Source of the DNA: Muribaculaceae bacterium
GTDB taxonomy: Bacteria > Bacteroidota > Bacteroidia > Bacteroidales > Muribaculaceae
DNA length: 64,000 nt
Assembly: GCA_029058745.1 (NCBI GenBank)
Contig: JAIDXM010000006.1
Location: 1 to 64,000 of the forward strand
Direction: 5' to 3'
Position numbers and translations under genes: made by a program. A model generated the notes under the pieces. It was not told the origin of the DNA. It saw only the letters and a list, made by a program, of their open reading frames with translations, and ran no database searches. Below are positions 46,653 through 61,610 of this stretch, in pieces (position 1 is the stretch's first letter; each line of letters begins with the position of its first letter).

Positions 46653-47579
46653 ATGAAGCGAATAGTTACTGTAATGATGTTATGCGCCGTATGGGCCATG
46701 AACCTGCTGGCCCAGGAGGTGGTGACAGGCACTGTTGTTGACGGCAGGAACGAGCCTGTGCCCGGAGTGCGTGTGGAAATCGACGGCCGTTCCGAGTATG
46801 CCATTACCGACATCGACGGCGTCTTCCGGATAGAGCTTCCGGTGACAGCTAAGAAAGTGAGGGTTACATATCCGGGCTATAAGCCTATAGTGAAGAATAT
46901 CAAGCCGGACATGGTGGTAAAGCTTGGCAACGGCTGGGCCGGACGTTCGAGCGGTTATCGCGGCTTCTTCGACTTCCAGATGGGCATCGGATTCGGAGGG
47001 GATGTCAATGTTTATGCCGGACAAAATAGTATAGAGGATTTACATCCAGGCTTTCAGTTTGGCTTTACGACAACGCACGGCTATCAGATTAACTCCAATC
47101 TTTATGCCGGAGTAGGATTTGGAATAATGCTTGGCACTTCTTATGGCAGAGAATTTGACTATGGAACCATATATACGTGGTATGAAACAAATTATGTGAG
47201 TCTTCCTTTGTATGTTGACTTACGGTGGGATTTCGGGCTTGCTAAGAAAACGGCTCCATATGTCGGACTAAAATTAGGTTATAAGCATAACATAGCCGCT
47301 GATGAAGATTATTCTTTATATCGATCTGGCAATTTAGGTGTCATATTTGATACCTGTGGGCAGTTCTTTCTTCAGCCTTCAATTGGTATGCGGACCAGAA
47401 TCGGGAATAAGGCAGGTCTTAACCTCGGTCTTTCCTATAGTATAATGGAGACGCGTAAGCTTAGGGCGGTATATGAGGAGCGTACATCAAACAATTGGCA
47501 GGATTATAATCTCCGGGAGGTGGATCTCGGAAGAAGTACCGGAGGGGCTATTATGCTGATTGTTGGTTTCGATTTCTGA
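46653..47579 (+). CDS. Outer-membrane barrel protein with N-terminal CarboxypepD-like domain
   Basis: 308 residues from ATG at 46653 (signal MKRIVTVMMLCAVWAMNLLAQ, one residue over the quoted limit trimmed: cleavage after LLAQ). Residues ~21-95 form a carboxypeptidase-regulatory-like fold (TGTVVDGRNEPVPGVRVEID). The rest is a beta-barrel beginning GYRGFFDFQMGIGFG and ending MLIVGFDF. The barrel is paralogous to the product of 48817-49524. Base composition changes from GC-rich to AT-rich near 47030, inside this gene, at the domain boundary. Function unknown. Confidence 0.82.
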   Translation: MKRIVTVMMLCAVWAMNLLAQEVVTGTVVDGRNEPVPGVRVEIDGRSEYAITDIDGVFRIELPVTAKKVRVTYPGYKPIVKNIKPDMVVKLGNGWAGRSSGYRGFFDFQMGIGFGGDVNVYAGQNSIEDLHPGFQFGFTTTHGYQINSNLYAGVGFGIMLGTSYGREFDYGTIYTWYETNYVSLPLYVDLRWDFGLAKKTAPYVGLKLGYKHNIAADEDYSLYRSGNLGVIFDTCGQFFLQPSIGMRTRIGNKAGLNLGLSYSIMETRKLRAVYEERTSNNWQDYNLREVDLGRSTGGAIMLIVGFDF

Positions 47580-47631
47580 TAGTTGTAAATTCCGTTAAGA
47601 TTTAAGATAATTACGGGTAATTAATATATTT

Positions 47632-48780
47632 ATGAAAATAAAGACAACATATTATATATCGTGTCTGTGTGCATTGTTGGCTTTTATGTCAGCGTGTACT
47701 GAGGAAAAGACATTCTATATCGAAGACGTGAAGTTCGGAAATGTGAATTTCGTGATAGAGAACATGCAAATTGGGGAAGGAAGTGTAGCTCATTCCACCA
47801 TGTATGATGGCTACAGTTATAGACCCGACGGAGAGGGATTGACATTTGAAATTTATGTCAATTCAGCATTAGGTGGTGTAGAGGGAGGCTTCTATCGATA
47901 TACGCTGGACGGGAATAATATTGTTATGTCCGGAGGTAACAATGACCTCCAGCTGAGATTCTCCCCTCAGTGTCCTGAGGAGGTTTCAGCCCATTTCACG
48001 ATGCCTTGGGGTAAAGAGTATGACCTTACAGCAAAGGATTCTGTTGTTAATGTCCTAATCAATAGGGATTTCTTGGCTCAATCGATGAATCCGGATCTTC
48101 AAACAAGATATTATCTTGTGGTGAAAGCCGAAAGCAAGTATAAGAAGGATAATACGACATACGTCAATAGCGGATATATCTTGATTGATATAGACCAGGA
48201 TTTGGAATACGATAAATCGGACGGGAAGTGGTATATAAATGATTGGATGAATAATGATTTGGAAATAAAGGGTAATTGCAATTTCTATGCCCGGAATTTA
48301 TCGGTGGGAGAGCCGGATCATGCTTCTACCACATGGGATGAAGGGTATGGGGGATATTATCCGACAGGGTACCGGAACGACAACTTCTTCATCCCGATTT
48401 ATCATCTCAATGATGACGGGACAAAGACCAATACCGGACATACTCTTGAATTTAACCTCGAATCCAAGAATCTCCTTTGGGTCGGCATGAACAATGAGGT
48501 GCAGTTCACATTCCGTTCATCAGGTACTGGAGAGGATAATGCCAGGCTGACTTTGCCTGACGGGAATGTGATTGATTTTACACGCCAGGATTCAACCTAT
48601 GTATGGGCAGTCCCCAATGATATTGTCAGTACATCCGGACGTAATCCGGTTGTAGTCACGGCAGAGTCAGAATTTGCCCGGGGAGGTGTCAAGCATTTCA
48701 ATAAGGGTTATATGCTGATAGAGGTCAACAGGGATATGTATTTCGACAAGAGTGATGGCACATGGCTATGGGGGCAGTGA
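47632..48780 (+). CDS. Lipoprotein made of two tandem homologous domains
   Basis: 382 residues. Lipobox MSAC then TEEKTF. Two repeats: the first (~30-200) ends NSGYILIDIDQDLEYDKSDG, the second (~215-382) ends NKGYMLIEVNRDMYFDKSDG; each also contains an LEFNL/LTFEI strand and a Q/E-F-T/R-F strand pair. The domain family was not recognised. Its genes for flanking barrels on the same strand suggest a surface or periplasmic partner of them. AT-rich composition. Confidence 0.8.
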   Translation: MKIKTTYYISCLCALLAFMSACTEEKTFYIEDVKFGNVNFVIENMQIGEGSVAHSTMYDGYSYRPDGEGLTFEIYVNSALGGVEGGFYRYTLDGNNIVMSGGNNDLQLRFSPQCPEEVSAHFTMPWGKEYDLTAKDSVVNVLINRDFLAQSMNPDLQTRYYLVVKAESKYKKDNTTYVNSGYILIDIDQDLEYDKSDGKWYINDWMNNDLEIKGNCNFYARNLSVGEPDHASTTWDEGYGGYYPTGYRNDNFFIPIYHLNDDGTKTNTGHTLEFNLESKNLLWVGMNNEVQFTFRSSGTGEDNARLTLPDGNVIDFTRQDSTYVWAVPNDIVSTSGRNPVVVTAESEFARGGVKHFNKGYMLIEVNRDMYFDKSDGTWLWGQ

Positions 48781-48816
48781 TATATTTAACAGTCACAAAT
48801 TTAAGAATATGATGAT

Positions 48817-49524
48817 ATGAAAAAGATATTGACAATAGTTATAATGTCGCTACTCCCGCTGATGGCGTCTGCACAAGACTGGAGGGGGTACAGGGGATTT
48901 TTTGATCTCTATTGCGGCATGTCGATGGGCAGTGGAGAAAGTTTCAGCCCCGTGCATAATCTTGAATTGTCAGATTTCAGAAATGAAGCTACATTCGGGT
49001 TTAATATAACCGGCGGTTATCAAGTATTTCCATTCTTATTTTCCGGAGTTGGATTCGGCGCTCATACGACCGTTGTCCACACATCCATAAATAATTTCTA
49101 TGATGATTATGTAGATAAATATAACAAACATACATTCTATTCTATCTATTTTCCGGTTTTCGCCGACTTCAGATGGACATTGAACATCAATTCAGTGGTT
49201 ACGCCATTCGTGGATGTGAAGATTGGTTATCAGTTTGGTACTCCAATTAACGAAGGTTATCTGACGGGTTATTATGATGTGCAAACATCAAGTTATAATT
49301 CTGAAATAGATGTTCGTCCTAAATCGGGTGTTTATTTCCAGCCATCTGTCGGTGTGCGTTTTGGAAAAGGGACTGCCTTTAATCTCGGAATCGCATATAA
49401 TCCTTCCATAGGAAAGGAGTTTGTAATGGTGCGTTCGTTGGTTGATTCATCACGTGCAACTGAGACGGTGGTCGGTAAATCGTCAACAGGTTCGATATTA
49501 CTAACTTTAGGAGTCGATTTCTAA
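48817..49524 (+). CDS. Outer-membrane barrel protein, paralogue of the first barrel
   Basis: 235 residues with signal peptide (LMASAQ). After WRGYRGFFDLYCGMSMGSG the barrel strands align with the 46653 protein (TGGYQVFPFLFSGVGFGAHT against HGYQINSNLYAGVGFG; FADFRWTLNINS against YVDLRWDFG) and end LLTLGVDF. It lacks the CarboxypepD-like domain. Together with the lipoprotein it forms an AT-rich unit that looks like a duplication or acquisition. Confidence 0.82.
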   Translation: MKKILTIVIMSLLPLMASAQDWRGYRGFFDLYCGMSMGSGESFSPVHNLELSDFRNEATFGFNITGGYQVFPFLFSGVGFGAHTTVVHTSINNFYDDYVDKYNKHTFYSIYFPVFADFRWTLNINSVVTPFVDVKIGYQFGTPINEGYLTGYYDVQTSSYNSEIDVRPKSGVYFQPSVGVRFGKGTAFNLGIAYNPSIGKEFVMVRSLVDSSRATETVVGKSSTGSILLTLGVDF

Positions 49525-49537
49525 TGTAATTAACATA

Positions 49538-49584
49538 TATTAACAGAATTTGTTGGTAAAAACGGAATATTATTTATAAATTTG
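49538..49584 (+). promoter_or_regulatory. Promoter with ATATTAAC upstream element
   Basis: ATATTAAC (49538-49545), TTGG, and TAAATTTG (49577-49584). The sequence between (GGTAAAAACGGAA) resembles the promoters at 59259 and 61804, but with only two G instead of eight and 10 bp shorter overall. Confidence 0.6.
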
Positions 49585-49644
49585 GACTTTCATACTTCCG
49601 GTGTCCTTAAAGGGATGTCAGTCAAGTGTGAAAGTCCTTTTTTT
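49584..49644 (+). terminator. Strong terminator immediately after the promoter
   Basis: GGACTTTCATACTT (49584-49597) pairs with AAGTGTGAAAGTCC (49624-49637) with one mismatch, then seven T. Transcripts starting near 49590 would be only ~55 nt, a possible small RNA; alternatively it ends the trio upstream. Confidence 0.75.
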
Positions 49645-49791: not shown

Positions 49792-50421
49792 ATGAAGAAG
49801 ATTTTTACATTGCTTCTGACCTTGTGCTTCCTGGCGCCGGTCTATGCGCAGAACTATGACAAGGCTATAGAGAAGGCTCAGAAAAAAGAGGTGAAGCAGA
49901 AGATGAAAGACTACAAGAAAGCCGGTTATGAGATTATGGGCAGCCGCACCATGGAGGTGGCTCTCAACAAGCACTATGGCAAACTCAACGAGCTTGGCGA
50001 CAACGGACTCGTGTTCGACGGAATCTCAAGCCGCACAAAATCCAAGAACATCGGTGAGCAGATGGCTATCAACAACGCCACCATCAAATATGCGCAGAAG
50101 GCGGGCAGCACCGTCAAGGGGCGTGTAGTGAGCGACGGTTTCGCCAATGGCGTTGACGCCGAGGGGGAGTTCGACAAATTCTATGCCGCCTATGAGCGCC
50201 TTGTGGAGCAGAAGGTGAAGAACGCGTTGATTCCCAGCTATTCCATCTGCAAGACCAACGCCGACGGCACATATGAGATACAGGCGTTCTTCATCGTTGA
50301 CGAAAGCATAGCGAGGGTGGCCCGCAACGCCGCGCTTGAGGCCGCTCTCAAAGACACGAACCTCGCGCAGAAATATGCCGAGAAGGTGCGTGCGTTCGCA
50401 AACGACAAAGTTTCCGACTGA
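49792..50421 (+). CDS. Exported protein of unknown function, first gene of the caspase operon
   Basis: 209 residues, signal peptide cleaved after PVYAQ. A lysine-rich helical stretch (AIEKAQKKEVKQKMKDYKKA) is followed by an alpha/beta domain with NNATIKYAQKAGSTVKGRVV and EIQAFFIVDESIARVARNAA. The alternating Ala-rich helix and G-S-x-V-x-G strand recall LPP20/FlgT-N-type domains, but this is weak. It has no catalytic motif. Predicted periplasmic. A hairpin (50443-50472) separates it from the next gene. Confidence 0.78.
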   Translation: MKKIFTLLLTLCFLAPVYAQNYDKAIEKAQKKEVKQKMKDYKKAGYEIMGSRTMEVALNKHYGKLNELGDNGLVFDGISSRTKSKNIGEQMAINNATIKYAQKAGSTVKGRVVSDGFANGVDAEGEFDKFYAAYERLVEQKVKNALIPSYSICKTNADGTYEIQAFFIVDESIARVARNAALEAALKDTNLAQKYAEKVRAFANDKVSD

Positions 50422-50442
50422 CGGACAGTTGACTTTCATAAC

Positions 50443-50472
50443 GGAGGTCATGGCCCGAAGGCCGTGGCCTCC
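50443..50472 (+). other. Intercistronic hairpin
   Basis: GGAGGTCATGGCC pairs with GGCCGTGGCCTCC across CGAA, 11 Watson-Crick pairs plus G-T pairs. No T-run follows, so mRNA stabilisation or processing is more likely than termination. Confidence 0.6.
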
Positions 50473-50505
50473 GCTTATGGCAAAATAAAGCCTAATATTG
50501 AAACG

Positions 50506-52617
50506 ATGATGATACCATATATACGCACTTTTGCCTTCTCTCTCGCCTTTGCCGGGGCGCTGGGTTGCGGCATGGCGTTGGCCAAAGACCCGGCCCCGCA
50601 ACAGGATGCCAACCAGGAGAAGACCGACTACCGGTTCCGGCAGCAATACACCCCGACCCGTATATCCCCCAACAATACGGTAGTCTATACGCTTTCGCCC
50701 GTCAGCATCTCGACAATGAGGGGCGACGTGCTTTTCTCCACAAAGAAACAGCTCATGTCGCTGAACGTGATACCATCGGGAGTGAGCTACATGGTGATTG
50801 AGAAGGACAAGAAGGGGAAGAAGACGGCCACTGTGCTGAGCACTGCCGAGGCCGGGAAGAAACTCTCCTCTTTCGACGTCAAGAAGTATGGCGAGCCGTC
50901 GGCGGTGGTCTATACCCCCGATGCGCGTCAGATTGTGGTGGCCACCAATCTTGGACTCTACATCTTCGAGCCGCGCAAGATGGCCCTCATAGAGCAGATG
51001 GAGCTGCCGTTCACCCCCACGGCCATGGCGATGAGCGACAACGCCTATTATCTCGCCATGATGGATGGCGACCGTGTCGCGGTCTATAATTTCGAGCAGA
51101 AGAAACTGCGTCGCGACTGGACTTACGGCATAGCTGTCACCGACATGACATTCAACAACGGGAGCAGCGAGTTTGCCGTGCTCACGTCCGACGGCCTGCT
51201 GACTGTCTATGACACGCGCACGTTCAATATCAAGAACGACCTCGACAATCTCGGCGACGGCCTTGCCTGCGCTTTCAACAACGACGGGAAGTATATGGCG
51301 GTGGCCACGTCTCCCAACACGATAGAGATGGTGAATCTCGTGCGTCCCGACGACCGCAACACGATGCCCGTGGAGACGGGGGCCGTGGGCGACCTGGAAT
51401 TCATCAAGGACTCAAAGGGGAACTCGATTCTTGTGTTCACCACGGAGAGGGCGTTGGGAGCCAAGAGGATGGTGGGCCTCGAACCTCACTATAACAAGCT
51501 CATAAACGATGAGGTTGACCGTTTGATGGACGAGTGGCAGAAGATGATGCCGGGCGAGAGCATGGAGGACTATGCCCTCCGTGTCAACGACGAGACACGC
51601 GCCCGTCAGCGCCGCCTTTTCGAGGATGAGATTTCCACGCAGCTTGCCGGCGACCTCCTTTCGGGACAGACCATGAGCCTCGGAAACTACGACCGTGCAA
51701 ACCAGGTGCTGGCCATCGACTTCTCGACGATGCCTACAATCTATCTTCCTGTGCCGGAGAGTGATGTCACCTCTTTCCATGACGCGGGCGACCTTCTCCT
51801 CTCCGATGTGCAGTATGGCGTGTTGCCCGACGATACATTCGAGATTATCTATGCCAAGGTGTTCAACAAGGCTGACGGCAAGACATATGTGTATAACAAC
51901 GTCAACCGTGTGGCCATGAACTTCATGGACGGCGACGCCAATGTGGTGAGCCTCGAGATTCTCCAGCAGCAGCAGATGGAGGAGCTTAAACTCCAGGAGC
52001 TTCGCGAGAGAGTGGTGGAAGAGGCAAAGACACGTGATGTGATTTCCAACCACACCAATATTGCCGTGAATTCACGGGTAGTGCCCGACTATAACGCCGA
52101 CGGTAAGAAGATTCTCAATTATGAGGTCAACTTCACCTACCAGGTGGAACCGGAGTTCTCCGCCGCAGAGGATTTCCCTCCCGGCAAATATCATGTCGGG
52201 GAGTCAGGGGCGGCCAGTTCCATGCTCCAGATCGTGAAGGAGGCTTTTGAGGGAGACTTCGCCCGCTATCTGAAAGATGGCAAGAGGGTGAGGGTGGTGA
52301 TTTCCGGCACGGCCGACGCCACACCTATCATCCGCACCATCGCCTACGACGGCAGCTACGGAGACTTCGAGGATGAGCCTATCTATGAGAACGGCGACCT
52401 GACGGCCATCACCGTCACCAAGGCGGCAGGCGTGAAGGAGAACCGCCAGCTCGCGTTCCTGCGTGCCCAGGGGGTGAAGGACTATCTTGAGCGCAATGTC
52501 ACCCCGCTCAATAATGTCAAGGCCGACTACACATTCAATGTGGATGTGGCTGAAGGGAAAGGGAGCGAGTTCCGGCGCATCACGGCCAATTTCACGATTA
52601 TCGATGTTTTCGATTGA
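50506..52617 (+). CDS. Exported WD40-like propeller protein with OmpA-like C-terminus
   Basis: 703 residues from ATG at 50506 (a reading from 50464 runs through the hairpin and is rejected). The signal peptide ends GMALAKD. Residues ~100-330 contain WD40-like blades (AVVYTPDARQIVVATNLGLY, AMAMSDNAYYLAMMDGDRVA, FAVLTSDGLLTVYDTRTF). A long helical part follows (LEILQQQQMEELKLQELRER). The C-terminal ~170 residues look OmpA-like, with VVISGTADATP and ENRQLAFLRAQGVKDYLE. It may anchor an assembly to peptidoglycan. Unknown function. Confidence 0.8.
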   Translation: MMIPYIRTFAFSLAFAGALGCGMALAKDPAPQQDANQEKTDYRFRQQYTPTRISPNNTVVYTLSPVSISTMRGDVLFSTKKQLMSLNVIPSGVSYMVIEKDKKGKKTATVLSTAEAGKKLSSFDVKKYGEPSAVVYTPDARQIVVATNLGLYIFEPRKMALIEQMELPFTPTAMAMSDNAYYLAMMDGDRVAVYNFEQKKLRRDWTYGIAVTDMTFNNGSSEFAVLTSDGLLTVYDTRTFNIKNDLDNLGDGLACAFNNDGKYMAVATSPNTIEMVNLVRPDDRNTMPVETGAVGDLEFIKDSKGNSILVFTTERALGAKRMVGLEPHYNKLINDEVDRLMDEWQKMMPGESMEDYALRVNDETRARQRRLFEDEISTQLAGDLLSGQTMSLGNYDRANQVLAIDFSTMPTIYLPVPESDVTSFHDAGDLLLSDVQYGVLPDDTFEIIYAKVFNKADGKTYVYNNVNRVAMNFMDGDANVVSLEILQQQQMEELKLQELRERVVEEAKTRDVISNHTNIAVNSRVVPDYNADGKKILNYEVNFTYQVEPEFSAAEDFPPGKYHVGESGAASSMLQIVKEAFEGDFARYLKDGKRVRVVISGTADATPIIRTIAYDGSYGDFEDEPIYENGDLTAITVTKAAGVKENRQLAFLRAQGVKDYLERNVTPLNNVKADYTFNVDVAEGKGSEFRRITANFTIIDVFD

Positions 52618-52626
52618 ACCTACACC

Positions 52627-52662
52627 GGGGGTGTCCGTATCAGCAAGAGGATGCCCCCGGAC
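52627..52662 (+). other. Intercistronic GC-rich hairpin
   Basis: CCGGGGG and CCCCCGG arms at 52628-52634 and 52655-52661 with an internal TGTCC/GGATG stem. No T-run. Probably an mRNA-stability element within the operon. Confidence 0.55.
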
Positions 52663-52688
52663 ATAATCTCTCCATATAATTTTCAGAT

Positions 52689-55304
52689 ATGACAAGACAG
52701 ACAAAGATTTACAGTTTGATCAACAGGCTCACCGGCAAAGGGGCGCTCCCTCTCGCGGCTTTCATGCTCGCGGGCGGCGGGGTGTCGCTCTATGCTGTGG
52801 CGCAGGAACCTCAGGACATAGTCTCTCCGGCCGGAGACACGACGGAAGAGACGGAGGAGGCTCAGCCACGGCTCGCCGAGGCCGCTGAACTCTACAAGAG
52901 TCTGAAGCAGCTCCAGTTTGACGGGGCTGACGAGGCGGAAATATATGAGACGGCCTTCAAGACATATGGTCTTGCATCGGCCATACTCGTCTCAGACACC
53001 ATCGGCGACGCCTCCGCCGACCAATGTCGCGGAATGTTGCTCGACCTCAACAATTCCCTCGCACGTGCTGCTGTATATTTTTCAATGAAGGGGGACAATT
53101 CCAACATGTCCCGTTTCGCGAAAGCCTATGTGGATACCCAGCTTATGCCGGAGATGAGCGGGGCCGACTTCAGGCGCGATCCGGAGCTCTACCCGGCTTT
53201 GGTGTATTGCGCCGCTTCCGGTTCGTATAACGCCGGGGCTGTGGAAGACGCGATAAAGTATTTCGAGGTGTATCTGCGCACCGAGGAGAAGAAGCATCGT
53301 GAGAAAGTGGCCCTATATTACGGCCAGTCGTTGCTTCAGACCGGACAGCAGCAGCGCGGACTGGATGCGCTCGTGTCGGCGGCCAACGAATTCCCGGCCA
53401 ATCTCCAGATCCTTACCATAGCCATGCAGCTGTGTATCGACACGGGTCGCCGCGACATTCTCCCCCCGTTGGTGGAGCGCGCGCTCACGTTCAAGCCCAA
53501 CGATGAGAAACTTCTCAATCTGCAGGCCCAGATATATGAGGATAAGGGGGACTACCGTCCCGCCCTCGACATTTACATGCGTCTTGACGAGGCTCATCCC
53601 AACAGCCTGAGCATTAACGAGTGTATTGCGCGTTGCTACTATAATCTCGGCACCGGCTATTATAACGAGAGTATCATGGCGATGAACGAGAAGGACGCCT
53701 CAAGAAGCCGCCGCCAGAGCAACGCCTATTTCTCGAGCGCGGCCGACAAGTTTGAGGAGCTGCTTGCCAATGACGCCAACAACGTGAAATACCTGAAGGC
53801 GCTCACCACCTCCTACGCCTGCCTCGGCAACAAGTCGAAGGTGGATGCCCTCAATGTACAGCTCTCCGCACTCGGGCAGGCTCCGATGGCCATGAACGCG
53901 ATGCCGGTGGTGATGGGCGATTCCAAGGGGGGCGGAACGAGGGGACCCAGGGAGATTCCGTCATATCAGGACTATGCCCAGGCTTTCGTCACATCGGAAA
54001 TCACCAAGTGGGCGCAACGCGGGGAGTTCGAGAAGGTTGATGACTACACTAAGCGTGTCGCCCCCGACAAAATACGCAAGGAGCAGGAACGCCTCAGCTC
54101 CATTACGGCCGACAAGTATCTCCAGGAATTCGCGAGCCATCTCGTGCTCTCCGAACTGAAACTTCAGCCTTATGACGTGGAGAACGAGACATATGCCATC
54201 GATTCCGACTTCGGACAGGTGACTGTGAAGGTGCCTCTCAAGAACAAGGAGGCGGAGGCGTTCAAATCGGGTTGGGAGCAGGTGCAGTTGCGCAATGCCA
54301 AATTCTATATCAAGGATGACAGGATTGCCATCTCCACCATCACTTTCCACAGCCCCAACGGCAAGGATTACACCTACAACGCATCCGACGCGTTGGCCTA
54401 CGGGCCGCCGCCTGTGGTGGGTGTTGACCCGGCTCTTCTCGCCGACATCACGAAGCCGAAGGAGAAGAAGACTCCCGTCAAGACTGACGAGACTCGTAAA
54501 CCCTCCGTTCCGCAGGTGGAGAGTGATGTCGATAAGAATATTCCCGTCACCAAGAGTGTCAACTCCAACACGATTGCACTTGTCATAGCCAACGAGCACT
54601 ACAACAAGGTGACGCAGGTGGCCTCGGCGGAGCATGACGGCGATGTGTTCGCCAGATATTGCCGCGAGACACTCGGCATCCCGGCAAATCAGGTGCTGGT
54701 GTTCAAGAACGCCACATTCGGCAACACACTCTCTGCCATGAACCAGCTGAAGAATTCTGTCCAGGCTCTGGGTCCCGGCACAGATGTCATTGTCTATTAC
54801 GCCGGACATGGAGTGCCCGACGAGAAAACCAACGAGGCATATATGCTTCCCACCGATGCCGACCCGATGGTGATGGCAACCGCCTATCCGCTTTCTGAAT
54901 TCTATAAGGAGCTCAGCGGGATGGGGGCCGACAACGTGATGGTGTTCATGGATGCTTGCTTCAGCGGAGCCAACCGTGGCGACGGTATGCTCGCCGAGGC
55001 GCGAGGCGTGGTGCTCAAGGCCAAGGCCGCCGCGCCGAAGGGAAATATGTTCGTGCTCAGCGCGGCCGACGGCAATGAGACAGCCCTCCCCTGGAAAGAG
55101 AAGAACCATGGCCTGTTCACCTACTATCTGCTCAAGAAACTTCAGGAGAGCAAGGGTAACGCGTCTCTGCGTGAGATTGCCGACTATGTCACTGCCGAGG
55201 TGAAGAAAACGGCAAGCCTCACCCTCAACAAGCCTCAGACTCCGAAGGTGAACGTCTCCGGCACTCTTGCGGGAGAGCTTGACAAAAAGAAACTTAAGAA
55301 ATGA
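52689..55304 (+). CDS. Exported TPR protein with C-terminal caspase-like (peptidase C14) domain
   Basis: 871 residues. An N-terminal signal (LYAVAQ) is followed by a TPR solenoid (~50-400, for example NLQAQIYEDKGDYRPALDIY and ARCYYNLGTGYYNESIM), a beta-rich middle (~430-590), a Pro/Lys linker, and a caspase-hemoglobinase domain (~620-850). The dyad is complete: His707 in YYAGHGVP and Cys757 in MDACFSGANR. Caspase folds of this kind cleave after basic or acidic residues. Export puts the protease in the periplasm or at the surface. It overlaps the next gene by four bases. Confidence 0.9.
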   Translation: MTRQTKIYSLINRLTGKGALPLAAFMLAGGGVSLYAVAQEPQDIVSPAGDTTEETEEAQPRLAEAAELYKSLKQLQFDGADEAEIYETAFKTYGLASAILVSDTIGDASADQCRGMLLDLNNSLARAAVYFSMKGDNSNMSRFAKAYVDTQLMPEMSGADFRRDPELYPALVYCAASGSYNAGAVEDAIKYFEVYLRTEEKKHREKVALYYGQSLLQTGQQQRGLDALVSAANEFPANLQILTIAMQLCIDTGRRDILPPLVERALTFKPNDEKLLNLQAQIYEDKGDYRPALDIYMRLDEAHPNSLSINECIARCYYNLGTGYYNESIMAMNEKDASRSRRQSNAYFSSAADKFEELLANDANNVKYLKALTTSYACLGNKSKVDALNVQLSALGQAPMAMNAMPVVMGDSKGGGTRGPREIPSYQDYAQAFVTSEITKWAQRGEFEKVDDYTKRVAPDKIRKEQERLSSITADKYLQEFASHLVLSELKLQPYDVENETYAIDSDFGQVTVKVPLKNKEAEAFKSGWEQVQLRNAKFYIKDDRIAISTITFHSPNGKDYTYNASDALAYGPPPVVGVDPALLADITKPKEKKTPVKTDETRKPSVPQVESDVDKNIPVTKSVNSNTIALVIANEHYNKVTQVASAEHDGDVFARYCRETLGIPANQVLVFKNATFGNTLSAMNQLKNSVQALGPGTDVIVYYAGHGVPDEKTNEAYMLPTDADPMVMATAYPLSEFYKELSGMGADNVMVFMDACFSGANRGDGMLAEARGVVLKAKAAAPKGNMFVLSAADGNETALPWKEKNHGLFTYYLLKKLQESKGNASLREIADYVTAEVKKTASLTLNKPQTPKVNVSGTLAGELDKKKLKK

Positions 55305-56188
55305 GGACTATATTATCGTTAGTCATGACGGCATTATGCGCCATAGGGATGGTGCATAATGCCTCGGCTGACTCTTCCGTGAAGAAGGTGAGCGGCAACT
55401 ACACATACTATGGCGACAAGAATGACTCCCCGGCCATGAGCAAGCTCAAGGCCCTTGAAGGGGCCAGGCTCGACGCTTTGTCGAAAGAGTTCGGCACCAT
55501 TGTCACCCAGGATGTCCTTCAGGCCGACAGGGTGGATTCTCATGGAGAGAGCAGCAAGTTCTTCTCCCTCTCTTCCACGGAGGTGAAGGGGGAGTGGATA
55601 GCCGATGACGGCGACCCTGTATATGTGGTGTCGCTGGGCAACGACGACTGCCTGATAGTCAACTGCCGCATCAAGGGCACCGCGAAGTCGATCAGCAACG
55701 ACGCCATAGACTTTGAGGCCATCGCCCTCCGCAATGGCACCGGGAAGGGTAACTCCTCCTCGGAGTATCATCAGGGCGACGACCTGTTCCTCTCTTTCAC
55801 ATCTCCGGTTGACGGCTATCTCTCCGTGTTCCTGATGGGAAACAACGGCGATGTGTGCAAGATGCTTCCCTATCAGCAGGACTCGCGTCAGGAAGTGAAG
55901 GTTAAGAAAAACTACGACTATGTGTTTTTCGACCCCTCCAAGGCCGGTGGTGAGTTTGGCGATGTGGATGCGTTCTCAATCGGCACTGACGGGGAAATCG
56001 AGTTCAACAAGCTTTATGTGGTGTTCTCTCCCAATCCTTTCTCAATGCCTGTGCTTCGTCCGGCCAAGTCGGAGTATTCCCTTCCGTATCTCACGGAGGA
56101 GGAGTTTTCCAAATGGCTTGTCAAGAACCGGCGAAACGATCCCAAGATGGGGGTGAAGCAGATTAATCTTAAGCTTTATCCCAACTGA
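55301..56188 (+). CDS. Exported DUF4384 protein
   Basis: 295 residues, signal peptide cleaved near NASADS. The N-terminal ~120 residues (KLKALEGARLDALSKEFGT, then VKGEW) resemble LPP20/FlgT-N-type folds. The C-terminal half is DUF4384-like: GDDLFLSFTSPVDGYLSVFL, then CKMLPY. DUF4384 is often fused to or next to caspase domains in bacteria. Here it is a separate protein, start overlapping the caspase gene stop (ATGA), which supports a direct partnership. Confidence 0.85.
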   Translation: MRTILSLVMTALCAIGMVHNASADSSVKKVSGNYTYYGDKNDSPAMSKLKALEGARLDALSKEFGTIVTQDVLQADRVDSHGESSKFFSLSSTEVKGEWIADDGDPVYVVSLGNDDCLIVNCRIKGTAKSISNDAIDFEAIALRNGTGKGNSSSEYHQGDDLFLSFTSPVDGYLSVFLMGNNGDVCKMLPYQQDSRQEVKVKKNYDYVFFDPSKAGGEFGDVDAFSIGTDGEIEFNKLYVVFSPNPFSMPVLRPAKSEYSLPYLTEEEFSKWLVKNRRNDPKMGVKQINLKLYPN

Positions 56189-56214
56189 AACAGTCACTTA
56201 ACCGAAAAATCGAT

Positions 56215-57930
56215 ATGAAGAAGACGCTATTGATAGGAGCCTCGCTTCTTATGGCGGGAGTGCCGCAGGCACAGGCCCCGGCAAGTTTCGAAGAGTTCCG
56301 CCAGGGAATCCTGAACGACTACCAGGAGTTCCGGCACACCATACTTGAGCATTATGCCGATTTCCTCGAAGGGACCTGGCATGAGTATGAGCCTCTGGAG
56401 CCTCTGAAGAGGACGGAAGCCCCGAAACCTGTCAAGATTCCCGATGTGCGGCTCAGCAAGCCATCAACAACGCCGGTGACTCTCCCCGAGCCGCGCCTTG
56501 CCTCCATTCCCGGCATCGGCTCTCCGAAGCAACCGTCGCTCTCAGAGCAGCTTGGCGACAAGGGGAAGCCGGGGCAGAACGCCCCGGTCACCAAGCCTAC
56601 ACTTCCCGAACGTCCCGGAGAGATAAAGTCGCCGTTCGACCCTCCCAAGTGTGAGATACCCCCGGAGGCCAAGCGTGAGATTCCGTTGACTCTCAATGTG
56701 CGTCCTGATGTCGGTGCCCCGATCTTAGGAAAGATTCCGGAGATGCCGAAGCCGATACCGGTTCCGGAGGAGCCGGAGATTGCCGAGACTCCTGTGGAGA
56801 CCCCGGCAGAGACTCCGCAGGAGGAGTCGAGAGAGGGTAAAGAGGTGGTCAACTTCTATGGTATGGAAGTTCTTGTGCCCAAGGTGGATTTCCAGATCAG
56901 CGAGAGTCTGGCTAAGGTTTCCGATTTCGCCCGCCATTGGAAGGTGCTCGACGAGCAGGATGTGGCCCAGAGGGTAGAGGAAGCCGTGATTCCGGTAGTG
57001 GAGAGTATGGGACTCAACGACTATCTGAAATTTGAATTCCTGAGCGCGTATATGGATTCCAAGTTTCCGAATGCGGGTATTTCTCCGAGGATGTCGGCAG
57101 TGCATTATATGCTTGCCAACCTCGGCTATAACGCGAGAATCGCCGTGGCCACCAAGACCGGCGACCCTATAATATTGATTCCTGCGGAGCAGACTCTCTA
57201 TGCGGTGACTTACATGCAGCTCGGCGGCGAGAAGTTTTATGTGCTTGGCGGGCGTAATGTCAACCTTGCCGGAACCACCCTCGCAACGTGCGACCTTCCG
57301 AAAGGGGCGTCCTCAGGAAAGAAATTCAATATGCTCATCAACGGACTCAATATCCCGCGTAAGGATAGGAAGTTTGAGGTGACACATGGCGACATGCGTC
57401 TCACAGGGAGCGTGAACGAGAACATGATGCCGATTGTGTATCGCTATCCGCAGATGGATACCCGCGACTATGCCATAAGCAGCCTCGACGAGCCGTTGCG
57501 TCAGGACCTTGTGCGACAGGTGAAGGAGCAGCTTTCCGGCAAGGAGGGGCTGAAGGCCACCAACAGTCTTCTGCAGTTTGTGCAGTCGGGTTTCGAATAT
57601 GCCACCGATGATGAGTTCCATGGATTCGAGAAGCCGTATTTCCTGGAAGAGAACCTCTATTATCCCAAGAACGACTGCGAAGACCGTGCCATCTTCTATA
57701 CCTATCTTCTCTGGAATGCTCTTGGAATAGAGAACCAATTGCTGGCGTTCCCGGGCCATGAGAGCGCTTCTGTGTCGATTGACGGTGTGGATGTCCCCGG
57801 CACAAGCTACACATACGAAGGGAAACGTTTCTTCATTTCCGATCCCACCTACATCGGAGCCACAACAGGAATGTGTATGCGCCAGTTCGAGACTACATCG
57901 CCTAAGATTGACCATACATATAGTCGATAG
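56215..57930 (+). CDS. Exported proline-rich protein with C-terminal transglutaminase-like cysteine protease domain
   Basis: 571 residues. The signal peptide ends VPQAQAP. Residues ~55-205 are a Pro/Glu/Lys-rich low-complexity arm (PKPVKIPDVRLSKPSTTP, PEEPEIAETPVETPAETP) that could span the periplasm or cell wall. The C-terminal half ends in a transglutaminase-like core with a full triad: Cys488 (KNDCEDRA), His515 (FPGHESASV) and Asp543 (FISDPTY). Such domains cleave or cross-link proteins or peptidoglycan peptides. Last gene of the operon, 26 bp after the DUF4384 gene. Confidence 0.85.
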   Translation: MKKTLLIGASLLMAGVPQAQAPASFEEFRQGILNDYQEFRHTILEHYADFLEGTWHEYEPLEPLKRTEAPKPVKIPDVRLSKPSTTPVTLPEPRLASIPGIGSPKQPSLSEQLGDKGKPGQNAPVTKPTLPERPGEIKSPFDPPKCEIPPEAKREIPLTLNVRPDVGAPILGKIPEMPKPIPVPEEPEIAETPVETPAETPQEESREGKEVVNFYGMEVLVPKVDFQISESLAKVSDFARHWKVLDEQDVAQRVEEAVIPVVESMGLNDYLKFEFLSAYMDSKFPNAGISPRMSAVHYMLANLGYNARIAVATKTGDPIILIPAEQTLYAVTYMQLGGEKFYVLGGRNVNLAGTTLATCDLPKGASSGKKFNMLINGLNIPRKDRKFEVTHGDMRLTGSVNENMMPIVYRYPQMDTRDYAISSLDEPLRQDLVRQVKEQLSGKEGLKATNSLLQFVQSGFEYATDDEFHGFEKPYFLEENLYYPKNDCEDRAIFYTYLLWNALGIENQLLAFPGHESASVSIDGVDVPGTSYTYEGKRFFISDPTYIGATTGMCMRQFETTSPKIDHTYSR

Positions 57931-58016: not shown

Positions 58017-58086
58017 TTGTCGTTGCGTATGGTTGTGTCGGCCAAAGACTTGGTATCTATAATGGCAGGATTGTGATTCCTTCAAC

Positions 58087-58133
58087 AACCCGGAAGCCTG
58101 TGAAACTGTTTTGTTTTTGCAGGCTTCCGGGTT
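58087..58133. terminator. Perfect 14-bp inverted repeat downstream of the caspase operon
   Basis: AACCCGGAAGCCTG (58087-58100) and CAGGCTTCCGGGTT (58120-58133). No T-run follows on either strand; it probably ends or protects the operon transcript. It lies 66 nt before the GH18 gene. Confidence 0.5.
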
Positions 58134-58198
58134 GCATCTGACCTTGATAATCTTGATAATGATGTCTCGGATTGTTTTAAAATTTGATGATTATGAAT

Positions 58199-59209
58199 AT
58201 GAAGATACGGATTTTGTTGATTTCGGTGATACTCGCGGCTTTGTGTGTGTCGGGAGTGATGGCCGCCGGGAAGGATGGAAAGGTAATCGTGGGGTATGTG
58301 GCCTCTTGGGGAACGACTCTTCCCGATGCCGCGAATCTCACCCACATCGACTATGCCTTCGGACATGTCAACTCCACTTTCGACGGTGTGCGCATAGACA
58401 ACCCCTCACGTCTCAGGGATGTTGTCGCGCTAAAAAGGAAAAACCGTAAGCTGAAGGTGCAGCTCGCTATCGGTGGCTGGGGCAGCGGCGGTTTCAGCGA
58501 GATGGCTTCAGACGCTGCTAAACGTAAGGCATTTGCAGAAGACTGTCGGCGTGTTGTGAAGGAATACGGACTCGACGGCATTGACATTGACTGGGAATAT
58601 CCCGGAAGCGGGAGAGCCGGAATCGCGAGTTCTCCGGATGACAAGGATAATTTCGTGTTGCTGATGCGCGACTTGCGCAAGGCTCTCGGTAAGGGGAAAC
58701 TGCTGACTTTCGCCTCCCCGGCCACAGTCAGTTTCTATGAGTTCGCGCCGGTCATGCCATATGTGGATTACGTCAATGTCATGGCCTACGACCTCAACCG
58801 TCCGCCGAGCCATCACTCCGCGCTTTATAGAAGTCCGCTTAGCGGCGACATGACTGCCGACGAGGGGGTCAGGGCGCATGTCTCCGGTGGTGTGCCACCG
58901 TCGAAGATTGTGCTTGGAGTTCCTTTCTATGGACATGGGAAGAGTGGTGTCTTTCCTGATTTCGTCAACTATCGCGACATACGGTGTGGCGAAGGGATGA
59001 GAGAGGTGTTCGACGATAAAGCCGGAGTGCCCTATATGACAGACAAAGACGGAAACATGGTAATGACTTATGACAATCCCGAATCGTTGAAAATGAAATG
59101 CCGTTATGTCAACGCCAACGGACTCGGCGGCATCATGATTTGGGAATGTGGAGGCGACACCGACAACGGCATTCTGCTGAAAGCAGTCAGGGAGGGGCTT
59201 TCTCAATGA
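58199..59209 (+). CDS. Glycoside hydrolase family 18 (chitinase/endo-N-acetylglucosaminidase fold)
   Basis: 336 residues from MKIRILL (58199); in-frame ATGs at 58184 and 58187 are alternatives. Signal peptide ends SGVMAAG. The catalytic motif DGIDIDWE is intact, with proton donor Glu133; other GH18 features are KVQLAIGGWGSGGF (substrate wall), YVNVMAYDLN and GIMIWECGGD. It has no carbohydrate-binding module. Likely substrates are chitin oligomers or host/bacterial glycans with N-acetylglucosamine. Monocistronic by the flanking elements. Confidence 0.93.
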   Translation: MKIRILLISVILAALCVSGVMAAGKDGKVIVGYVASWGTTLPDAANLTHIDYAFGHVNSTFDGVRIDNPSRLRDVVALKRKNRKLKVQLAIGGWGSGGFSEMASDAAKRKAFAEDCRRVVKEYGLDGIDIDWEYPGSGRAGIASSPDDKDNFVLLMRDLRKALGKGKLLTFASPATVSFYEFAPVMPYVDYVNVMAYDLNRPPSHHSALYRSPLSGDMTADEGVRAHVSGGVPPSKIVLGVPFYGHGKSGVFPDFVNYRDIRCGEGMREVFDDKAGVPYMTDKDGNMVMTYDNPESLKMKCRYVNANGLGGIMIWECGGDTDNGILLKAVREGLSQ

Positions 59210-59258
59210 TGGGCTGATACAGAATATCTTTTGTCGTATAATTGTAATTATTTAGGTA

Positions 59259-59315
59259 ATATTAACACAAATTAACTATTGGGGGGGGTAGAACGGAAAT
59301 TTCTGATTAACTTTG
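59259..59315 (+). promoter_or_regulatory. Poly-G promoter A (upstream of GH43)
   Basis: ATATTAAC starts at 59259, a run of eight G fills 59281-59288, then TARAACG and TAACTTTG (-7) at 59308-59315. The run ends 19 bp before the -7 box, where TTTG would be expected. The spacing ATATTAAC to -7 is 49 bp, the same as in promoter B at 61804. Confidence 0.7.
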
Positions 59316-59357
59316 CATTATATTCAAATTCACAGCTTGAGGTGTAAACCGGATTTC

Positions 59358-59416
59358 GCCACGCCCAGTTCATTGAGACTTGTCATATTCACTGAATGGG
59401 GGCGTGGCTTTTTTTT
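59358..59416 (+). terminator. Intrinsic terminator in the GH43 leader
   Basis: GCCACGCCC (59358-59366) pairs with GGGCGTGGC (59400-59408), plus inner TTCA/TGAA, followed by eight T. It lies ~40 nt after the predicted start of promoter A and ~110 nt before the GH43 gene. Confidence 0.85.
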
Positions 59417-59528
59417 GCGAATGTGCGTGGAATGTGATAACTTTGTTATCGGGATATGACAACTTAGTGTCCCGGCGAAATACAGACTGAATATAAACCA
59501 GAACATCAAACTAAAAACCTGACAGAAC

Positions 59529-61610
59529 ATGCGGAAATACATTCTGCCGTTTGCCTTGATGGCCGCCTCGCTCATTGCTTCGGCGCAGACCCGCTCCTGG
59601 AGTGCGGACAATGGCAACGGAACCTACACCAACCCTTTGACTTATGATGAGTTCTCAGACCCCGACGTAATTCGAGTCGGAGAAGACTATTATCTTGCCG
59701 GAACAACCATGCACACGGTTCCCGGGCTTGTCATCCTCCATTCCAAAGACCTCGTCAACTGGGAGAACGTCTCCTATTGCTTCGACCGTTTTGACTTCGA
59801 TGACGACGCTTTCTCTCTGAAAAACGGCAAGGAGATATACGGACAGGGTATATGGGCGCCATGCATACGCTATAACGACGGAAAATTCTACCTCTACAGC
59901 AACGTCAACGGCAAAGGGTTGCAATGCTACATAAGCGATAAAATCGAGGGCCCCTGGAAACATATCAACATGAAGGGGAACATATATGACCTCGGAGTGC
60001 TTTTCGATGATGACGGGAAGGTGTATGCCATCCACGGATATGGGGAGGTGAAATGCACTGAGCTGAAGCCGGACATGAGCGGGCCGGTGGAAGGCACCGA
60101 ACGTGTCATCATCCCCGAGGGGAGCGCGATTGGGGAAGGACACCACATGTATAAGATTGACGGGATGTACTATCTCATCTCCACAGACTACAAACCAAAC
60201 GGGCGCACCCTTTGCTCACGCTCCAAAAGTATCTGGGGACCCTATGAGACGTGTGTGATAACCGCCGACGAGACGTTCGGCTATCACGCCGCGCCCATGA
60301 CCTCCATCAAGGGACGCATAATGCCTGATGGGCATCCTGTGAAGGTGGTGGCTGCTGACCCTGACAAGACGGCCGCCTCCAACATCCACCAGGGTGGTAT
60401 CGTCTCCACACCCGACGGACAGTGGTGGGCACTCCTGATGATGGATTTCCATTCCATAGGGCGTACGGTGACACTCGCCCCCATCACCTGGAAGGATGGG
60501 TGGCCTATGATTGGTCTTGAGGGGAACCTCGGACGCGCCCCCCGCACGTGGCTGAAGCCTAACACGGCGGCTCGGGACACCGAGCCTATCCATGCCCCAT
60601 ATGAGCGTTGCGACAATTTCGACGGAAAGGAGCTTGGCCGTGTGTGGCAGTGGAACCACAATCCCGACGACAGCAAGTGGAGCCTTGCCAAGGGGAAACT
60701 GAGACTGAACACTATGCCGGCTCCCCAGCTTATGTGGGCACGCAATACGCTCACACAGCGTGCCATCGGACCGGAGTCGGTGGTGACGGTGGAACTCGAC
60801 GCCTCTCATTTGAAAGACGGCGATGTGTGCGGACTCGGTAATATAAATGTGCCGTGCTCGTGGGCCGGGATTGTGAGAAGGGGTAAGGAGTTAGTGCTGC
60901 GTCGTTTCGAACAGCTCGACAATGACACTCTCGACGTGCCGGTATCGCTCGACAAGGGGAAGATATGGCTACGCTTTATCGGTGATTTTGACAATGACAA
61001 GGGGCGTTATGCATATTCCACCGACGGACGCGAGTTCAAGGACCTCGGCGAGGATATGGTGCTTAGTTATCAGTTGATTACCTTCCAAGGAGCGAGGATG
61101 TCGCTTTTCGCCTTCAACACCCTCGGCAAGAATGGAGGGTATGCGGAGTTTGACAATTTCACTGTGGAGGAGCCGAAAGCCGACCGCAGCGGATACATAC
61201 CGTTCGGGAAGACGGTGAGGATTGTCAACCTGGCCACCGGTCTCCCGATGCATGCCACCCCTCACGGGCTGATGCATGACACCAAGGCTGACGCCGACAA
61301 TCCGCAGACCCGCTTCAAGGTGATTGACAGGGGTAACGGGAAGGTGATATTGCAGTGTTCCGACGGACGGTATGTGTTTGTGTCCGGGTTTGGGCTCCCC
61401 GGAGACGTGCGCCTCACCGACGACATCAGCAAGGCTGAGGAATTCATGTGGCAGGACTATCTTGACAAAGAATTCATGCTCATGTCGATGCGCACTCACA
61501 GATACATAGGGAAGAGTCCCACCACCGGAAGTCCGTATTCCATGGACTACACCGGTTCCGACCCGGCCCGCCGCAACGGTGCCGTGTTCCGTTGGGAAGA
61601 ATCCGAATAA
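59529..61610 (+). CDS. Glycoside hydrolase family 43 (beta-xylosidase/arabinofuranosidase type)
   Basis: 693 residues. Signal peptide ends LIASAQ. The five-bladed propeller (~30-340) shows the catalytic base Asp44 in FSDPDVIRV, the modulating Asp in LGVLFDDDGKVY, and the general acid Glu203 in IGEGHHMYK. A GH43 C-terminal beta-sandwich (~355-560) and a third domain of ~120 residues (VRIVNLATGLPMHATPHGL, a trefoil-like or other lectin-like fold) follow. It should trim xylose or arabinose side groups. Expression may be governed by promoter A and the leader terminator. Confidence 0.9.
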   Translation: MRKYILPFALMAASLIASAQTRSWSADNGNGTYTNPLTYDEFSDPDVIRVGEDYYLAGTTMHTVPGLVILHSKDLVNWENVSYCFDRFDFDDDAFSLKNGKEIYGQGIWAPCIRYNDGKFYLYSNVNGKGLQCYISDKIEGPWKHINMKGNIYDLGVLFDDDGKVYAIHGYGEVKCTELKPDMSGPVEGTERVIIPEGSAIGEGHHMYKIDGMYYLISTDYKPNGRTLCSRSKSIWGPYETCVITADETFGYHAAPMTSIKGRIMPDGHPVKVVAADPDKTAASNIHQGGIVSTPDGQWWALLMMDFHSIGRTVTLAPITWKDGWPMIGLEGNLGRAPRTWLKPNTAARDTEPIHAPYERCDNFDGKELGRVWQWNHNPDDSKWSLAKGKLRLNTMPAPQLMWARNTLTQRAIGPESVVTVELDASHLKDGDVCGLGNINVPCSWAGIVRRGKELVLRRFEQLDNDTLDVPVSLDKGKIWLRFIGDFDNDKGRYAYSTDGREFKDLGEDMVLSYQLITFQGARMSLFAFNTLGKNGGYAEFDNFTVEEPKADRSGYIPFGKTVRIVNLATGLPMHATPHGLMHDTKADADNPQTRFKVIDRGNGKVILQCSDGRYVFVSGFGLPGDVRLTDDISKAEEFMWQDYLDKEFMLMSMRTHRYIGKSPTTGSPYSMDYTGSDPARRNGAVFRWEESE

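Follow-up and report, generated by a model that had tools for sequence, protein, structure and literature searches.

A Gene Row of Gut Bacteroidales Encoding a Predicted Exported Caspase, a Propeller/OmpA-like Protein, and a LapG-like Protein

A five-gene operon with predicted export signals

The window analyzed here is a stretch of 64,000 nucleotides from a Muribaculaceae bacterium (assembly GCA_029058745.1, contig JAIDXM010000006.1, positions 1 to 64,000 of the forward strand; contig C68 of genome G000 in our numbering). The source genome comprises 3.17 Mb and is 92.75% complete. Between positions 49792 and 57930 lie five genes, including those for a tetratricopeptide repeat (TPR)-caspase and a LapG-like protein, that a preliminary description had presented as an exported unit on one strand with short gaps or overlaps. 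The five open reading frames (ORFs) are present as described, all on the + strand and separated by 84, 71, −4, and 26 bases; export signals are predicted for all five proteins. The genes and the hairpins that flank them are as follows.

49792..50421, +, g1, 209 residues, predicted exported, family not recognized (no credible Pfam match; cluster n = 25)
50506..52617, +, β-propeller/shared middle domain/OmpA-like protein, 703 residues (ORF open from GTG 50464)
52689..55304, +, TPR/shared middle domain/caspase (Peptidase_C14) protein, 871 residues (Pfam; dyad H707/C757)
55301..56188, +, DUF4384 protein, 295 residues, with a conserved N-terminal region (Pfam E 3e-5, below cut-off)
56215..57930, +, LapG-like (transglutaminase-superfamily) protein with signal peptide, proline-rich linker, and fold from residue 209
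49584..49640, +, strong hairpin then T run, between an upstream outer-membrane gene and g1 (−27.1 kcal/mol, z −4.9)
58086..58134, +, strong hairpin 3′ of the last gene (−35.6 kcal/mol, z −7.5)

For the propeller gene, the ATG at 50506 is the more likely start. The hairpin before g1 is a probable terminator that sets the operon apart from the outer-membrane gene upstream; because this hairpin and its T run precede g1 and a second hairpin follows the last gene, the layout suggests that the five genes form a discrete unit. A pattern scanner listed neither hairpin, and a promoter scan returned no site worth reporting. The DUF4384 protein scores 24.5 bits against PF14326 (cut-off 27). We do not claim that g1 and the N-terminal region of the DUF4384 protein descend from one ancestor (hhalign 13.7%).

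A middle domain common to the propeller and caspase proteins

The third gene encodes a clear caspase homolog (PF00656, 72.3 bits against a cut-off of 21.4, E 6e-20). D650, H707, D755, and C757 are kept in all 76 aligned caspase proteins, the other 3 of the 79 being gapped at those positions. The product of the second gene qualifies as a WD40/β-propeller protein. Between its propeller and its C terminus, and again between the TPRs and the caspase domain of its neighbor, lies a domain common to both proteins.

51490..51903, +, middle domain, propeller copy (residues 329 through 466 of 703)
53961..54413, +, middle domain, caspase copy (residues about 425 through 575)
52198..52614, +, OmpA-like C-terminal domain, propeller protein (with D, N, and R invariant, and the string LAFLRAQGVKDYL)

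The two copies of the middle domain are homologous (hhalign 98.8%, 134 columns, 21% identity; the E value of 1e-16 refers to that single comparison). Pfam gave no credible match for this domain, the best being KTSC at E 3.6e-4 in 5 of 20 members, and a sequence search of the PDB found nothing below E 0.079. Across 149 genomes drawn evenly from the Bacteroidales, the domain has 21 matches in 15 genomes. Nine of the 12 strongest (E ≤ 2.4e-13) sit in proteins to which Pfam or a profile of the caspase part alone assigns a caspase domain (G000, two; G140; G074; G123; G114, two; G093; G134); the other three are the window propeller protein and, unassigned, matches in G141 (at a contig end) and G137. 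At L184, a single chain of 750 residues combines WD40 repeats, recognized by inspection, with the middle domain and a caspase, and propeller-caspase fusions are also found at L185, L191, L192, and L193. Because the two parts are fused elsewhere, are adjacent here, and both carry the middle domain, their sequences suggest that the TPR-caspase and its propeller neighbor most likely work together in a single complex. The source genome encodes two more caspase proteins, on contigs C53 (L035) and C102 (L036), and the one on C53 has the middle domain.

Fusions of this kind have precedents. Cyanobacterial caspases are reported to be fused to WD40, TPR, DUF4384, and CHASE2 (PMC3501461, PMC7475262, PMC8283722), which speaks for an orthocaspase suicide or anti-phage unit. 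The window caspase shares with orthocaspases the His-Cys dyad, the recurring accessory domains and, in relatives, single-chain propeller-caspase proteins. Unlike in orthocaspases, however, the accessory parts are here separate, predicted exported proteins of one operon that includes a second protease, and the caspase contains a middle domain with no credible Pfam match. The defense annotation tool PADLOC matched its generic caspase model (E 1.4e-10) and otherwise yielded one match at E 0.07, so the locus was not retained as a defense system. All five proteins look exported, and Pfam found no NTPase, nuclease, or nucleotide sensor among them; we therefore give a role in cell death or defense little credence. 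Nothing was found in favor of the self/non-self response that had been proposed as one possibility.

The C terminus of the propeller protein resembles ten OmpA-type domains of its own genome (hhalign 85.5%; eight controls ≤2.3%), and its string LAFLRAQGVKDYL fits, with A in place of S, the LSX2RAX2VX3L type quoted for OmpA-type domains (PMC5053529). A search of the source genome with Pfam PF00691 gave 10 matches at E up to 10, none of them to the propeller protein. Taken together, the sequence comparisons support an OmpA-like end serving as a peptidoglycan-type anchor. A propeller combined with such an end could also belong to a secretion machine, a rather unlikely alternative in which the protein would be a PorE-like platform organizing the site where surface lipoproteins or barrels leave through the outer membrane, with the proteases only trimming cargo. 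PorE is the protein PG1058. PG1058 has TPR, β-propeller, CRD, and OmpA_C in that order and works in the periplasm as part of type IX secretion, with an anchor in the outer membrane (PMC5053529); parts of this type are spread over several genes here, with TPRs in the caspase protein, the propeller and OmpA-like end in one chain, and CarboxypepD_reg in nearby barrels. Against a scaffold stand the middle domain that the propeller protein has in common with the caspase and a row that keeps two proteins with invariant catalytic residues. Unlike PorE, moreover, the window propeller protein has no TPR or CRD detectable by Pfam, and PorE identity was set aside on architecture. In named records, Muribaculaceae and other uncultured gut Bacteroidales supply the closest propeller proteins. 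At L043 and L134, apparently one genome, the propeller gene is broken into two ORFs of 266 and 405 residues, apparently by frameshift, decay, or assembly error.

The LapG-like protein and the gene row in relatives

The preliminary description had called the last protein transglutaminase-like. The superfamily stands; a cross-linking enzyme is less likely, as the protein most resembles the calcium-dependent protease LapG. The predicted model has a predicted local distance difference test score (pLDDT) mostly >90 from residue 209 onward, LapG ranked first in both fold comparisons, and the fold matches span the catalytic residues C488, H515, and D543. Among aligned relatives, D487, C488, E489, and D490 are present in 63 of 63 and H515 and D543 in 62 of 62, so that this catalytic set, like H707/C757 of the caspase, proved invariant as well as present. 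The D-C-E-D string is the calcium/cysteine signature of LapG and DvhG (PMC4866520, PMC13090378), and DvhG has D-C-E (D316/C317/E318) around its catalytic cysteine (PMC13090378). Modeling and alignment favor a LapG-like fold with the D-C-E-D calcium/cysteine signature for the last gene's product.

The likeness to LapG and DvhG extends to the signal peptide, a fold whose best match is LapG, the Cys-His-Asp set, and an acidic residue on either side of the cysteine. Unlike them, the window protein has an additional folded part ahead of the catalytic one, a proline-rich arm, a caspase neighbor, and no match to PF06035 (Peptidase_C93). That family gave no match in the source genome at E up to 10 and is absent from the 23 Pfam families matched by 57 relatives of the protein; when the LapG-like profile was run against PDB sequences, matches were confined to the proline-rich stretch. 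That the last protein is instead a cross-linking transglutaminase or a noncatalytic binder, leaving the caspase as sole protease, appears improbable, given the rank of LapG in both comparisons and the invariant string; as a candidate, the cross-linker was judged less likely than a LapG-like protease after fold comparison. A tandem repeat of the transglutaminase fold, prompted by the order of helices and strands, is not claimed (hhalign 5.6%).

With the last protein as query, relatives were found in 27 of 59 genomes of the family; in 13 genomes the loci around these have the propeller, caspase, and companion genes next to one another, at least largely. The propeller protein as query gave 113 relatives among about 85,000 species genomes, from which 80 loci were kept. 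The caspase gene is the next + strand gene after the propeller gene in 75 of 79. Presence was counted over 62 loci, those whose sequence runs on for 6.5 kb or more downstream: caspase in 62, LapG-like protein in 55, DUF4384 in 54, g1 in 51, and all five families in 47. The genes are thus not scattered among relatives, and the neighborhood anticipated in the preliminary description is conserved. The commonest order is propeller, caspase, DUF4384, g1, LapG-like; g1 directly precedes the LapG-like gene in most relatives, and its position in the window, immediately before the propeller gene, recurs at eight loci (L074 through L076, L078 through L081, and L101). Isolates with all five families include Odoribacter lunatus (L102), Barnesiella sp. 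WM24 (L083), and Prevotella sp. 885 (L150).

In the 149-genome survey only the window genome has a full-length match to the propeller profile, 48 others having partial, weaker matches (≤62 bits), and profile matches were obtained for the LapG-like protein in 36 genomes, DUF4384 in 20, and the caspase in 132, the last with a profile that includes the TPRs. On these counts, the five-gene form is restricted to some groups and its components are more widespread. The LapG-like protein is found in different gene company too, alongside DUF6175, LPP20-type, or PEGA/barrel proteins. In other Bacteroidales families (e.g., L154, L155, and L169) it often has about 880 residues, and on visual inspection its long stretch of C-terminal repeats resembles a propeller. 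Among 20 other-family stretches, chosen partly for closely spaced matches, seven (L156 and L158 through L163) have caspase or DUF4384 genes near the LapG-like gene. A second LapG-like protein of the source genome (G000:C68:72513-73985, L034), 44% identical, is encoded about 15 kb past the operon, outside the window; the gene upstream of it differs (627 residues), and no caspase was recognized beside it. The row ends with tandem LapG-like genes at L107, L110, L114, and L126.

Like the shared middle domain, a pair of optional members goes beyond the preliminary description: a CHASE2 protein (26 of 62 loci) and a companion (24 of 62), usually encoded directly before the propeller gene. The pair at L039:988-3020, of 397 and 280 residues, was scanned with Pfam; no other domain was found in the CHASE2 protein and no match in the companion. 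The labels "FecR-like" for the companion and "LPP20-like" for g1, assigned by eye and with nothing from Pfam, are not findings. The pair raises the alternative of envelope-stress signaling, in which the propeller, OmpA-like, and CHASE2 parts would detect damage to the wall or outer membrane and set off proteolysis of a regulator. A propeller with a wall anchor fits such sensing. The window row, however, has no CHASE2 pair, the single CHASE2 protein scanned carries no further Pfam domain, and no regulator was recognized among the neighbors, which are annotated in part; we consider this alternative unlikely, slightly more so than a secretion scaffold.

Candidate clients and a putative envelope protease module

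Genes for possible clients occur within the row of some relatives. A small CarboxypepD_reg/outer-membrane protein is inserted at 12 of the 80 loci, 11 times directly after the caspase gene and once after the propeller gene; L051 and L059 also have a member of this family there. In six of the nine insert loci tested, the insert is followed by fimbrillin-like lipoproteins with PF13149 above cut-off (L128; L129; L131; L135, three; L138, three; L141, two). As for the others, L132 has Lcl_C lipoproteins, L136 a subthreshold Lcl_C match, and L152 nothing recognized. Because the 18 genomes searched have 0 to 44 PF13149 matches each, such a frequency in a short row is, by informal judgment, not expected by chance.

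Relatives of barrels encoded just upstream of the window operon also sit within the row elsewhere (L077, L149, and L059). At L077, another set of caspase, g1, and LapG-like genes comes directly after a relative of the second barrel and a lipoprotein of weak similarity (E 2e-5). The upstream group (46653..49524), beyond the probable terminator, is probably a separate transcript.

46653-47579, +, CarboxypepD_reg/outer-membrane-barrel protein (CarboxypepD_reg E 3.4e-12; barrel below cut-off)
47632-48780, +, lipoprotein-like protein
48817-49524, +, second barrel (barrel match below cut-off)

We tentatively propose, as a reading that is quite possible though short of probable, that the operon encodes a periplasmic, wall-tethered module of two proteases for the processing of proteins in the outer membrane or exposed at the surface. 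The middle domains would join the caspase and propeller proteins into a complex tethered to the wall, and the propeller and TPRs may bind a client or a signal. In metacaspases, acidic residues of the S1 pocket are linked to cleavage after Arg or Lys. Characterized caspase homologs likewise show basic specificity via negatively charged pocket residues (PMC8283722). Since D650 and D755 are invariant and homologs have this reported specificity, the window caspase would cut after Arg or Lys. The LapG-like enzyme would make a second, calcium-dependent cut, for which adhesin cleavage of the LapG type offers a precedent (PMC4359373, PMC13090378). Candidate clients are the outer-membrane barrels, lipoproteins, and fimbrillin-like subunits encoded in some relatives' rows, and the CHASE2 membrane protein could add a sensing input at the 26 loci that have it. 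Beyond predicted export, conservation of the row, and intact catalytic residues, we infer this mechanism.

The makeup of the fimbrillin loci weighs against such a two-protease module: only three of the six (L128, L131, and L135) have all five families, L138 and L141 have the propeller-caspase pair alone, and the L129 locus is cut. A minority of relatives carry outer-membrane and fimbrillin-like genes within the row, which lends some support to surface protein maturation, one of the roles suggested in the preliminary description. Gingipains and clostripain are cysteine proteases of the caspase-like clan. Their part in pilin maturation is a precedent (PMC12632263, PMC5954841), and proteases acting on fimbrillin-like lipoproteins recall the fimbrillin-like genes of the row. 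Unlike gingipains (C25) and clostripain (C11), the window enzyme is of type C14 and probably periplasmic, and its row has no fimbrillin. The idea that gut Bacteroides have in this caspase their missing pilin protease was rejected, as a review gives that role to a surface clostripain (PMC12632263).

A bolder version seems distinctly unlikely to us: an envelope caspase cascade in which the TPR-caspase, docked on the wall-tethered propeller via the common domain and activated by a signal, would switch on the calcium-dependent LapG-like protease, which would release or mature co-encoded pilus-like and outer-membrane proteins. If true, an apoptosome-like assembly of propeller and caspase would operate outside the cytoplasm and remodel the surface of gut bacteria.

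The functions of bacterial caspases are mostly obscure and are usually debated in terms of cell death. The operon offers a predicted exported caspase whose partners can be named, along with a second protease, a partner-linking domain and, in some relatives, candidate substrates, which opens the question of caspase function to direct tests in commensal gut bacteria. It may also represent a further route, beside clostripain and gingipains, by which Bacteroidales surface proteins are shaped. Each part has known relatives, and the caspase fusions to WD40, TPR, DUF4384, and CHASE2 are already published; the literature searched, which included few subscription papers and no preprints, contained no account of an exported caspase that has both a LapG-like protease and a propeller/OmpA-like protein as partners, and no paper found dealt with this gene set. 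Genes downstream of the row differ among relatives; in the window, chitinase-like and β-xylosidase-like genes (recognized by eye) lie 3′ of the operon at 58184-61610.

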